Below are positions 18,869 to 22,034 of a stretch of 23,651 nt of DNA, piece after piece; the first letter of the stretch is position 1; the number at the start of each line of letters is the position of its first letter. The notes beneath the pieces are model-generated. The model was not told the origin of the DNA. It saw nothing but the letters and a program-made list of their open reading frames with translations, and did not search any database. A program made the position numbers and the translations under genes. This DNA is from a virus. The DNA is taken from IMG/VR virus record IMGVR_UViG_3300046010_011757, positions 1 through 23,651 of that record. One strand, 5' to 3'.

Positions 18869-19186
18869 GTGAGCAAACAACCGAAAGCCCTGCGGCTGGC
18901 AAATAGACCCATCATCGACCGCGGATTCAGGTGGCACACCGAAGCCACCACAACGCTGCGCCGCCAACACGCCGAGAATGAGCGACTGCACGCGGAGAAC
19001 GAGCGGCTGCGGGCGTTGATCAGGCTAGACGACGCGGAGTGGCGCGACAAGGAAATATGGCCGGTGCGTGGCGATGCATATCAGGCGTGGTTGGTGCAGG
19101 TTTACCTCCCAGTCCCGCTGTCGGCGGCAGACAAAAGCCCGGAAGCCGCGCTTCAACGCGCTCTGGCGCAGGAGGTGCGGCCGTGA
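18869..19186 (+). CDS. Small coiled-coil protein, AENERL repeat (105 aa)
   Basis: GTG 18869 has GGAGG 7 bases upstream. Residues about 6-50 share a pattern with the gene at 19616: KALRLA, then a helix with LRR and HAENERL. Two consecutive HAENERL heptads (34-47) come from a 21-base tandem repeat in the DNA and should form a short coiled coil. The C-terminal half (EIWPVRGDAYQAWLVQVYLP) is different and may be a separate small domain. The end EVRP overlaps the next start. Function unknown; it belongs to the cassette-like run of small genes. Confidence 0.6.
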   Translation: MSKQPKALRLANRPIIDRGFRWHTEATTTLRRQHAENERLHAENERLRALIRLDDAEWRDKEIWPVRGDAYQAWLVQVYLPVPLSAADKSPEAALQRALAQEVRP

Positions 19187-19470
19187 ATCGCTTTACCGCG
19201 TACCGAAGAAATATCAGTCAGCGCGACACGCACAACCACTTCCAGAAGAACGCCGACCATGAACCGCAGTTTGAAGGCGTGATTTTTACGGACGGAACCG
19301 TGGCAATTCGCTGGCTCACGGCGTGTCGTTCGACCTCGGTATGGGCCTCCGTCGAAGATTGTCTCAACATCCACGGCCACCCCGAATACGGGACAGAGAT
19401 CATCTGGCACGACGGCGCTGCCCCTGAATGCTGGGTGCGGGCCGTACTCAAAGCGGAGGGCAAGACATGA
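19183..19470 (+). CDS. Small protein of unknown function (95 aa)
   Basis: GTG 19183 overlaps the previous stop (GTGA) and has GGAGG 7 bases upstream. The sequence (VNRFTAYRRNIS..., then FEGVIFTDGTVAIRWLTACRSTSVWASVEDCLNIHGHPEYGTEIIW) suggests a small antiparallel beta domain. The FxGVxFxDGTVAIRWLT pattern is typical of small phage orphan proteins. No catalytic or binding motif is recognised. It is coupled on both sides. Confidence 0.6.
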   Translation: MNRFTAYRRNISQRDTHNHFQKNADHEPQFEGVIFTDGTVAIRWLTACRSTSVWASVEDCLNIHGHPEYGTEIIWHDGAAPECWVRAVLKAEGKT

Positions 19471-19619
19471 CCGACCGTGAACTGTTGGAACTTGCAGCGA
19501 AGGCTGCTGAAGTTGGGAAGAGTCAGGCAAAACCCTTGACTGCCGAAGAATTCACCAAGTGGGTGGGAGACACTTGGAACGAGTGCCAAGAAAAAGCATG
19601 GAAGGAGCCGAAGCCATGA
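19467..19619 (+). CDS. Tiny helical protein of unknown function (50 aa)
   Basis: ATG 19467 overlaps the previous TGA (ATGA), with GGAGG upstream inside the previous gene. The product starts MTDRELLELAAKAAEVG and ends KAWKEPKP. It is almost certainly two short helices. The start chosen is the one that fits the overlap rule of this region; the upstream extension to 19428 is redundant. No family recognised. Confidence 0.55.
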   Translation: MTDRELLELAAKAAEVGKSQAKPLTAEEFTKWVGDTWNECQEKAWKEPKP

Positions 19620-20014
19620 CCGAACAATTCAAAGCTCTACGACTGGCGGATGCGCTTGACCGTAATGGTTATGACGCTGAAATGGCTAGCAACATGAATC
19701 AAGCAGCCGCCGAACTGCGGAGGCTGTATGCGGAGAACGAGCGGCTGCATCAGATCAACCAATGGCATGAGATGAAACTGTCTGTGCGTGGGTATGTGAT
19801 ACAGGTTGATGACTTGAAGGCGGCAAACGCGGAACTGTTGGCGGCGTTGAAGCGAATGGTGCTTGACGGAAATTGCAGAGATGCGAACTACCGAGCCTTG
19901 GCAAATGACCAAGCCCGAGCAGCCATCGCCAGAGCGGAGCAGCAACCCCGCCGAGCGGCATTGAACGTGGTGCATCAGGCGTTGCAGGATGAAGCAGAGG
20001 AGGTGAAGCCATGA
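19616..20014 (+). CDS. Small coiled-coil protein, KALRLAD/AENERLH module (132 aa)
   Basis: ATG 19616 overlaps the previous TGA and follows AAGGAG by 8 bases. The N-terminal module (KALRLADALDRNGYDAEMAS, then AAELRRLYAENERLH) matches in style the gene at 18869. The remainder is mostly helical with a second heptad-like stretch (DDLKAANAELLAALKRMV). The C terminus ends EEVKP, encoded by the same bases that form the next ribosome binding site. Small proteins with this N-terminal module are common in uncultured phages, without known function. Confidence 0.6.
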   Translation: MTEQFKALRLADALDRNGYDAEMASNMNQAAAELRRLYAENERLHQINQWHEMKLSVRGYVIQVDDLKAANAELLAALKRMVLDGNCRDANYRALANDQARAAIARAEQQPRRAALNVVHQALQDEAEEVKP

Positions 20015-20175
20015 ACAAGCATTGCCGCAAGTGCCGACACCATCACAACGCCGGACACCCGAAGAATTCGCCACGTGCTTACCGGTACAACGACTGGTGC
20101 TGCAAGTTTGGATGTACAGCGGAAAACGCGCTGTCTAGGTGCAAACTCTGGAATGCGAAGGAGGAGGCGACATGA
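20011..20175 (+). CDS. Cysteine-rich mini-protein, zinc-ribbon-like (54 aa)
   Basis: ATG 20011 overlaps the previous TGA, with GAGGAGGTGA upstream, and its own TGA overlaps the next ATG. The product has six cysteines: C5 and C8 (CRKC), C30, C31, C35 and C44, plus a HHH run at 10-12 and an aromatic RAYRYNDWCC segment. It probably folds around one metal ion. The perfect ATGA joints on both sides argue that it is real despite its size. Function unknown. Confidence 0.6.
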   Translation: MNKHCRKCRHHHNAGHPKNSPRAYRYNDWCCKFGCTAENALSRCKLWNAKEEAT

Positions 20176-20970: not shown

Positions 20971-21088
20971 CACGCGATGAACTTGAACAAGCCATTTATG
21001 AGCGCACCCGCGATTTTGTCGGAGTCATTCATTTGGACTGCATCCTTGAATTGATTGCAGACGAGCGGGAGAAGGAGCGGGAGGCGTG
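20967..21088 (+). repeat. Dispersed repeat A, copy 2
   Basis: Second copy of the N-terminal module at 20435-20556; about 97% identical by eye over 122 bases without gaps, including the start codon. Confidence 0.8.
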
Positions 21089-21215
21089 CATCAAGGTGAT
21101 TGGGGCGTATCGAATTCCAATCGGCAATAGCGAGGCGGGCGAGTTGGCGCGAGATTGGACTCTTGACGCTCTCAAATACATCAGAGACGAAATCCGTGCG
21201 AGGGGGAACAAATGA
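20967..21215 (+). CDS. EREAC/RARG-family small protein, chimeric member 4 (82 aa)
   Basis: ATG 20967 overlaps the previous TGA; GAGGGGGAA precedes it. Residues 1-37 (MTRDELEQAIYERTRDFVGV, IHLDCILELIADEREK) copy the gene at 20435. Residues 37-82 (EREACIKVIGAYRIPIGN, then ARDWTLDALKYIRDEIRARG) copy the gene at 20172. The join falls at the EREAC motif, whose DNA (GAGCGGGAGGCGTG) is shared by all members. It is thus a recombinant of two neighbours. Function unknown. Confidence 0.65.
   Translation: MTRDELEQAIYERTRDFVGVIHLDCILELIADEREKEREACIKVIGAYRIPIGNSEAGELARDWTLDALKYIRDEIRARGNK
21075..21215 (+). repeat. Dispersed repeat B, copy 2
   Basis: Second copy of the C-terminal module at 20295-20438. 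It overlaps the last 14 bases of repeat A copy 2 at GAGCGGGAGGCGTG, which is the likely crossover site. Confidence 0.7.
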
Positions 21216-21448
21216 CACGCAACGACATCATCCGACTGGCGAAAGAGGTTGGATTCAGTGACCGCAGCAACCCGATGTGGGGGTCTATGGTTGCATCCCA
21301 CGAGGAGATTGAACGCTTCGCCAAACTTGTTGCAAAGGTCGAGCGAGAGAAGGAGCGGGAGGCGTGTGCGAAGTTGTGTTTGGAGACAGAGCCGTTCTAT
21401 GGCGTGATGTTTGCCGCCGCCATTCGTGCGAGGGGAGAAGGTAAATGA
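21212..21448 (+). CDS. EREAC/RARG-family small protein, IIRLAKE-type (78 aa)
   Basis: ATG 21212 overlaps the previous TGA. The N-terminal module (MTRNDIIRLAKEVGFSD, MWGSMVASHEEIERFAKLV) is shared with the gene at 21693, with a 35-base identical run at 21287-21321. It continues into VEREKEREACAKLCLE and the common ending AAAIRARGEGK. This is the most complete and typical family member: one N module, EREACAK hinge, variable loop, RARG tail. Function unknown. Confidence 0.65.
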   Translation: MTRNDIIRLAKEVGFSDRSNPMWGSMVASHEEIERFAKLVAKVEREKEREACAKLCLETEPFYGVMFAAAIRARGEGK

Positions 21449-21696
21449 CCCATGTTGTTCACGTACGAAACGAGCGTAGGCAGGAACTGCTTAAACACAT
21501 GAACGCAGTGATCGAAGCCGAACGCGCAGAACGTGCGCGAGATGCTTGGTTCCACGGAGTGCTGTGGGCGATCCTGCGACTGCCCGACGACATGGCCCGC
21601 ACCCTTGCGGACGATCTGATCAAGAAACAGCCTGACCGAAAGGCACAACTTGGGAGATTGCTGTCTTGGACGGAGTGGAATGGAGAGAGTAAATGA
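21445..21696 (+). CDS. Small helical protein of unknown function (83 aa)
   Basis: ATG 21445 overlaps the previous TGA, with GAGGGGAGAAGG upstream. The sequence (THVVHVRNERRQELLKHMN, then AERAERARDAWFHGVLWAIL and DDMARTLADDLIKKQ) is different from the family members around it, though it ends in GESK like them. Its end encodes GGAGAG as the site for the next gene. An AERxxxARDAW hinge may be a distant relative of EREAC. Function unknown. Confidence 0.58.
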   Translation: MTHVVHVRNERRQELLKHMNAVIEAERAERARDAWFHGVLWAILRLPDDMARTLADDLIKKQPDRKAQLGRLLSWTEWNGESK

Positions 21697-22034
21697 ACAG
21701 AGAAGACATTATCCGACTGGCGCGGGAAGCTGGGTTCAGCGACCACAGCAGCCCGGAGATGTGGGGAGTAATGGTTGCATCCCACGAGGAGATTGAACGC
21801 TTCGCTGAACTCGTTGCCGCAGCCGTCCTTGCGGAGCCGGAGCCGGAGCCGGAGCCGGAGCCGTACCCTGTGGCGTGGATGGAAGCCCCTCACGGAGCGA
21901 TACGCGCAAACCCGCTGTACCGCATATATCTTCCCCCCTCATTACTGGCGTGGAGCATTCCGCTTTACACCCACCCACCCAAAGCGCGTGACTGGGCGGC
22001 CGCCGCCATTCGTGAAAGAGGAGAGAGCAAATGA
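21693..22034 (+). CDS. IIRLARE-type mosaic protein with Glu-Pro repeat and PVAWM domain (113 aa)
   Basis: ATG 21693 overlaps the previous TGA. Residues 1-46 (NREDIIRLAREAGFSD, MWGVMVASHEEIERFAELV) match the gene at 21212. Then comes a Glu-Pro linker made of five GAGCCG units. After that a segment PYPVAWMEAPHG...PLYRIYLPPSLLAWSIPLYTHPP replaces the EREACAK part, and the protein returns to the shared ending AAAIRERGESK. PVAWM...PLYTHPP is a recurrent motif in phage and prophage orphan proteins, without known function. It is a three-part fusion. Confidence 0.65.
   Translation: MNREDIIRLAREAGFSDHSSPEMWGVMVASHEEIERFAELVAAAVLAEPEPEPEPEPYPVAWMEAPHGAIRANPLYRIYLPPSLLAWSIPLYTHPPKARDWAAAAIRERGESK
21834..21863 (+). 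repeat. Tandem hexamer GAGCCG, five copies
   Basis: Five perfect, contiguous GAGCCG units encode (Glu-Pro)5 between two protein modules. Perfect units suggest recent slippage; the copy number may vary among related genomes. Confidence 0.9.

Follow-up and report, generated by a model that had tools for sequence, protein, structure and literature searches.

In a 23.6-kb virus contig (IMG/VR record IMGVR_UViG_3300046010_011757, only part of a genome and here called the window), a run of small genes lies downstream of a DNA polymerase gene. Very probably, this run belongs to the early replication region of a tailed phage and forms an accessory array of cassettes, in which constant blocks of DNA act as recombination homologies for the exchange of protein loops. 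Six of its genes are members of one family of small proteins, and comparison of family genes indicates that exchange at the blocks is well supported at the sequence level. The window polymerase groups near phage DSL-LC04 and Pelagibacter phage HTVC023P and is adjoined by primase and helicase genes. All or nearly all of the sequences compared here are metagenome assemblies.

Exchange of segments within one family of small genes

Family members are 65 to 110 amino acids (aa) long and have a common layout consisting of a constant start helix (MTRDDIIRMAREAG), variable segment 1, a constant hinge helix (ERFAALVAAAEREACAKVC, also FAALVAAAEREACAKVC), variable segment 2, and a constant tail helix (AIRARGE), the codons of which double as the ribosome site and ATGA start of the next gene. 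At the DNA level, the hinge (consensus GAGCGtGAGGCGTGTGCgAAGGTGTGTGA) is strongly conserved with sharp edges, and it is exact in three window genes, which is not a chance expectation. Two members that differ in their loops were modeled with AlphaFold (mean confidence, 87.7 and 92.1), and both models have the same three helices (residues 3 to 12, 30 to 59 or 28 to 55, and 64 to 77 or 62 to 74), joined by two loops that correspond to the variable segments. A three-helix scaffold with two loops is predicted with good confidence from these models. A preliminary description of this locus had noted two recurring types of gene joint, treated below; beyond what it reported, most genes with the second type are paralogues, a second recurrent DNA block lies within the gene, and one gene is chimeric. 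The family genes of the window and their blocks are as follows.

20172 to 20438, plus strand: family gene 20172; its C-terminal segment (20289 to 20426) is common to gene 20967 (repeat D4)
20435 to 20662, plus strand: family gene 20435; its N-terminal segment (20432 to 20566) is also in gene 20967, at 94% (repeat D3)
20659 to 20970, plus strand: family gene 20659, with an additional middle module; its C-terminal segment, CEDVWNSRKGLETGTALEC, is also in L004, L005, L006, and L007
20967 to 21215, plus strand: family gene 20967, a chimera of the N-terminal segment of 20435 and the C-terminal segment of 20172, with the switch at the hinge
21212 to 21448, plus strand: family gene 21212; AlphaFold predicted local distance difference test score of 87.7, three helices and two loops
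21693 to 22034, plus strand: family-related gene 21693, with an N-terminal segment as in 21212, an EP repeat, a PVAW...LYTHPP module, and the tail AAAIRERGESK (repeats D6, D7, and D12)
20295 to 20315, plus strand: hinge block of gene 20172, 3 mismatches
20543 to 20563, plus strand: hinge block of gene 20435, GAGCGGGAGGCGTGTGCGAAG
20857 to 20877, plus strand: hinge block of gene 20659, exact
21075 to 21089, plus strand: hinge block of gene 20967, GAGCGGGAGGCGTGC (repeat D1)
21353 to 21373, plus strand: hinge block of gene 21212, exact
20627 to 20662, plus strand: tail and joint block, GCCGCCGCCATCCGTGCGAGGGGAGAGAGCAAATGA, comprising tail helix codons, ribosome site, and ATGA; again at 20403, 20938, 21413, and 21999 (repeat D2)

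Exchange is visible within the window itself. Gene 20967 joins the N-terminal segment of gene 20435 (135 nucleotides [nt], 94% identity) to the C-terminal segment of gene 20172 (138 nt, 81%), and the repeat analysis places the switch at GAGCGGGAGGCGTGT. A search of viral contigs with degenerate hinge patterns, which were codon-blind except that arginine AGR codons were omitted, yielded 202 distinct family proteins on 179 loci, a lower bound (at least 179 loci). We compared segments among the 188 genes that have both variable segments, scoring them as alike at 75% or more and as unlike below 45%. Twenty-seven of the 33 pairs alike in segment 1 were unlike in segment 2, and 78 of the 88 pairs alike in segment 2 were unlike in segment 1. 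By the same measure, other small proteins on the same contigs were discordant in only 13 of 629 and 26 of 740 pairs (2 to 4%). Recurring modules had more than one partner in 19 of 24 (N-terminal) and 27 of 30 (C-terminal) cases. Relative to the hinge GAG, DNA breakpoints fell between +14 and +34 nt when the N-terminal segment was shared and between −37 and +6 nt when the C-terminal segment was shared, at or inside the hinge block.

Pairs of nearly identical phages captured individual replacements most cleanly. Segment 1 is the sole difference between L272 and L302 across the displayed ∼400 nt, the upstream sequence, hinge, C-terminal segment, and downstream sequence being identical. One gene differs between L019 and L032 in segment 1 only, and another differs between L017 and L032 in segment 2. 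In L009 and L051, with flanks 99.2% and 96.8% alike, a block has been replaced from hinge to tail. Among the 103 discordant pairs located on different contigs, 48 share less than 100 nt outside the gene, so modules cross between otherwise unrelated phages. The recurring variable segments are under purifying selection (ratio of nonsynonymous to synonymous polymorphism [pN/pS], 0.14 and 0.19), and the diversity therefore derives from replacement, not mutation.

The constant blocks are also conserved as DNA. We measured codon agreement at matching residues in genes sharing neither variable segment and compared it with the expectation from codon usage. Agreement equaled expectation in the variable segments and jumped within about one codon at the start, hinge, and tail blocks. 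Across 49 genes (no shared module, one gene per contig), the excess agreement was 0.275 (0.213 to 0.321) at the hinge, 0.195 at the tail, 0.147 at the left hinge, and 0.075 at the start block, and it was indistinguishable from zero in the variable segments; the control, the DNA polymerase of these phages, had an excess of only ∼0.04 at 76 to 79% protein identity. Such agreement would not be expected from protein constraint alone, while spread by recombination, or selection, would keep codons. The suggestion in the preliminary description that the joint is kept as DNA agrees with these data, in which the synonymous sites of the tail and joint are conserved between genes without a common variable segment.

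Several further features of the family were observed. The family alignment has conserved cysteines at EREAC and four positions later (C-x3-C), and another often stands just before the tail; these could form a metal or disulfide site. Extra middle modules (e.g., VKQGYRKCAEGQKTTQFCGMLEEAV and ATGHGDTIEDLLKELEWQ) lie between two hinge-like stretches in the window (20749 to 20865) and in L094, L112, L117, L130, L019, and L032, and the number of modules per gene therefore varies. The EP repeat of gene 21693 is followed by its PVAW...LYTHPP module (21829 to 21980), and P[VY]AW occurs 84 times in 75 collected loci. Another small phage protein family (DGGxAFPV...GMSLRDYFAAKAMQ...ADAMLKARE) has constant ends and a replaced middle (L150 near 2336; L200 near 3497, minus strand; L247 near 4578, minus strand; L213 near 869, minus strand), so this mode of exchange may extend beyond the two-loop family.

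Gene joints and the gain and loss of whole genes

The preliminary description had interpreted positions 19183 to 22034 as a train of cassettes joined at twelve consecutive ATGA or GTGA overlaps, each with its ribosome binding site in the last codons of the upstream gene. We found this to be accurate throughout: the joint at 19183 is GTGA, the other eleven (19467, 19616, 20011, 20172, 20435, 20659, 20967, 21212, 21445, 21693, and 22031) are ATGA, and at each a GGAG- or AGGGG-type ribosome site lies within the final codons of the upstream gene, with a 4-nt stop/start overlap. The run extends further than had been listed, with 4-nt overlaps also at 22421 and 22639; the joint at 22194 is an exception. 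Both joint types are present where they had been placed. Type 1 (GGAGGTGAAGCC-RTGA or near) occurs at 18869, 19183, 19616, and 20011, and the stop of the gene upstream of 18869 does fall within the joint (18862 to 18864). Type 2 (AGGGG..., with an AIRARGESK-like end) occurs at 20435, 20659, 20967, 21212, 21445, and 22031 and in shortened form at 21693. Joints 19467 and 20172 are of neither type and resemble each other (repeat D11).

An ATGA overlap by itself is commonplace in phages. ATGA or GTGA ends 177 of the 202 family genes, compared with 37% of 2,579 other called genes on the same contigs; at 37%, twelve in succession would have a probability of ∼7e-6 if independent, which joints are not. 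The joint sequence recurs as an exact 24-mer, CGTGCGAGGGGAGAGAGCAAATGA, in 10 IMG/VR stretches, and GGAGGTGAAGCC[AG]TGA occurs 10 times in 8 of the collected loci. The common joint sequence is clearly nonrandom. An intergenic promoter at the array borders is unlikely because these borders are 4-nt gene overlaps.

To compare whole-gene content, we used relatives chosen by polymerase rather than by array (L008 to L087), which gives an unbiased view of the site. In six of these polymerase-anchored relatives the site is empty, and the left flank gene (18682) nearly abuts the right flank gene (22639). In another six (L015, L016, L017, L018, L019, and L032), the left flanks are 95 to 98% alike and the number of array genes ranges from zero to about ten: L018 has none, L015 and L016 have one extra gene, L019 has two plus the KTVIH gene, L017 has three, and L032 has about ten. 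At the nucleotide level, the left side is identical through GGAGAGCTACAATGA and then diverges, and the right side is identical from CGTGCGAGGGGAACATGAAGACC. Relative to L016, L018 has lost one gene across the short repeat GAAGAAAG. Among the polymerase-anchored loci, 98 of 280 synteny breakpoints (35%) lie within 22 nt of an ATGA or GTGA joint, a zone making up 6.2% of the sequence (5.6-fold enrichment), and 40% lie near any called gene end. Thirteen of the 280 lie within the constant blocks (0.4% of the sequence), an enrichment that is real, few in number, and partly expected because the blocks always align.

Alignment of related contigs at the locus, with joint conservation scored at synonymous sites, was the check that the preliminary description had proposed for its cassette idea. 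The idea passed because breakpoints are enriched at the joints and relatives vary in array genes; near-identically flanked relatives gain, lose, and swap entire genes. Its unit of exchange needs amendment, in that whole genes do move but the unit is often half a gene instead, with the internal hinge block an equally important boundary. By preserving translational coupling, the fixed joint may cause or permit exchange.

The other features of the locus are as follows.

18682 to 18864, plus strand: left flank gene, conserved, encoding a short zinc-finger-like protein
18869 to 20175, plus strand: first half of the array, genes 18869, 19183, 19467, 19616, and 20011, with type-1 joints
21445 to 21696, plus strand: array gene outside the family, with type-2 joints on either side
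22194 to 22642, plus strand: last array gene and KTVIH gene, the latter in some relatives only
22639 to 22935, plus strand: right flank gene, conserved

The 20011 gene recurs, joint to joint and at 89% nt identity, in another neighborhood in L025, and the first half of the array, with its type-1 joints, likewise behaves as gene cassettes. Dozens of loci match the window array in short patches, the edges of which lie at gene starts, hinges, and tails. Contig L003 carries the same array at 100% identity and may represent the same population. An AENERL-coding repeat (D8) is common to genes 18869 and 19616 (18965 to 19010 and 19724 to 19748), and from this repeat the genes with type-1 joints may be modular as well. 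The opposite strand of the window (8652 to 11023, minus strand) carries genes for a PD-(D/E)XK nuclease-like protein and an SNF2-type helicase, which are possible parts of a recombination module.

Distribution of the family

Deposited phage records and bacterial genomes contain almost no members of the family. When genomes of 85,000 bacterial and archaeal species were searched with a related hinge pattern, a single contig matched. A blastn search of the array against deposited phages gave no match, and tblastn with one real 105-aa member gave four weak records; tblastn with other queries against phages or plasmids returned nothing, perhaps owing to low-complexity masking or short queries. There was no match near the curated cutoff in Pfam or NCBIfam, one weak hit at most in PHROG, none among Protein Data Bank (PDB) sequence profiles, and nothing below an expect value (E) of 1.4 in a Foldseek search of the PDB. 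The best Foldseek matches among viral models were uncharacterized proteins of uncultured phages. Three of 40 members match Nif11 weakly (best E, 7e-4 in NCBIfam and 3e-3 in Pfam), and the weak Nif11 match of gene 21693 covers the short start helix only and is below the Pfam cutoff. The family motifs were not found printed in the literature searched. The family is abundant in phages, rows of its genes being found in freshwater phages, and apparently undescribed.

On other contigs, the large recognizable proteins near the family are mostly replication proteins of several kinds. In a deposited uncultured phage (L336, MW202462.1; 2501 to 3412), a weak family member adjoins a ninB gene; ninB is a recombination mediator in lambda.

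Alternative explanations and comparison with known systems

Phage genomes are mosaic, and the array might reflect ordinary mosaicism, in which illegitimate recombination adds or removes small early genes anywhere, in-frame survivors are selected, and the constant stretches are conserved protein helices only. Selection alone predicts breakpoints at gene borders, as in the 40% that lie near any called gene end. However, discordance affects only 2 to 4% of pairs of other small genes from these contigs, synonymous conservation of the blocks is above the polymerase control, and breakpoints fall within genes, at the hinge; we consider this explanation unlikely. A dedicated site-specific recombination system that recognizes the hinge and joint blocks would fit the sharp edges and strong DNA conservation of the hinge consensus, but breakpoints are dispersed over the block rather than fixed at one base, the exchange involves three different blocks, and the phages have diverse backbones, all of which make such a system very unlikely.

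Another explanation would be that the repeated blocks of 30 to 60 nt led short-read assemblers to join segments of different genes; every locus comes from a metagenome assembly, and copies of the blocks recur, exactly or nearly so, in single contigs and across different ones. For diverged modules this is refuted. Many common modules are 75 to 92% DNA-identical to otherwise unrelated contigs, the shared loops are under purifying selection, and gene 20967 matches its sources at 94% and 81% rather than at 100%. The same array is also present on L003, though the 100% identity there may mean one population. Overall, chimeric assembly is a highly improbable source of the pattern. Least probable is targeted mutagenesis of the variable segments, for example by a diversity-generating retroelement, even though a constant scaffold with variable loops resembles retroelement targets: loops are replaced whole, length included, the same loop recurs in different genes under purifying selection, and none were seen that differ by adenine-position point changes only. 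Of the window genes scanned, which represent part of a genome, none was noticed to encode a reverse transcriptase.

Several points weigh against our interpretation that the blocks are recombination homologies. Because all data are from metagenome contigs, swaps between near-identical contigs could be assembly artifacts, which are excluded for modules shared at 75 to 92% nt identity and for chimeric paralogues in one contig. Alignment edges fall at block borders partly by construction because the constant blocks match everywhere. No recombinase was identified. Finally, protein constraint together with frequent recombination may have conserved the blocks as a by-product, with no selection for a recombination site.

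In this interpretation, which we hold as very probable, the three constant stretches, kept as DNA, serve as short homologies, and we infer that the probable route is homeologous recombination between coinfecting phages or between copies within one array. Single loops, half genes, or entire genes are swapped with frame, fold, and translational coupling intact, apparently yielding numerous variants of a single small three-helix protein that differ in its two loops. Lambda Red homeologous recombination acts on diverged DNA (Martinsohn et al. 2008, PMC2327257) and is a plausible engine for the exchange, although the array blocks are only 30 to 60 nt; no Red-like gene was identified in the window. 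The proteins are small, vary in their loops, and are encoded among early replication genes, which suggests a role against host or defense targets; they could, somewhat speculatively, be early host-takeover or counterdefense binders whose loops set the target.

In logic, the nearest known system is domain movement in the type I restriction specificity subunit, HsdS, in which target recognition domains (TRDs) are shuffled (Furuta et al. 2011, PMC3077401). HsdS and the phage family share a constant-variable 1-constant-variable 2-constant layout, and in both the variable parts are recombined at flanking constant DNA within or between genes while the fold is kept; in the family, the two variable segments between three constant ones recombine freely. 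No restriction specificity subunit was matched in Pfam, NCBIfam, PHROG, or PDB sequence and fold searches. Unlike HsdS, the family consists of small three-helix proteins with loops of ∼10 to 40 residues, encoded in multigene arrays and exchanged between unrelated phages; the x-TRD-y-x-TRD-y repeat layout of HsdS is not shown for the family, which has no known DNA target.

T4-type mobile early promoter cassettes and lambdoid nin-region boundary sequences tie the gain and loss of small early genes to short conserved stretches at gene borders. Such border-sequence cassettes of early phage regions are nearest in location, and the array resembles them in that its small early genes come and go with breakpoints at conserved borders. 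Those borders lie between genes, whereas the array border is coding, contains a ribosome site and an overlap, and is accompanied by a block inside the gene. We know of neither HsdS nor border cassettes having coding blocks within tiny array genes that border loops. Phage protein domain mosaicism involves ongoing shuffling of the folded domains of tail fibers, endolysins, and replication proteins (Smug et al. 2023, PMC10684548). Phage protein parts are shuffled in both cases; in the array, the parts are individual helices and loops of tiny early proteins, and their borders are conserved as DNA.

The exchange units and borders of this family are readable straight from sequence. The family makes testable how phages hold frame, fold, and expression while exchanging parts and whether short coding DNA can be selected as a recombination handle. 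With hundreds of natural loops, the two-loop helical scaffold is also a source of candidate host-targeting proteins. We tentatively suggest that freshwater phages may share a pool of several hundred loop modules, that the coding blocks may have evolved as recombination handles, and that diversification by exchange may be used against varying host targets. If true, a shared loop pool with handles would be a form of combinatorial diversification, with a logic comparable to antibody or restriction-specificity shuffling.

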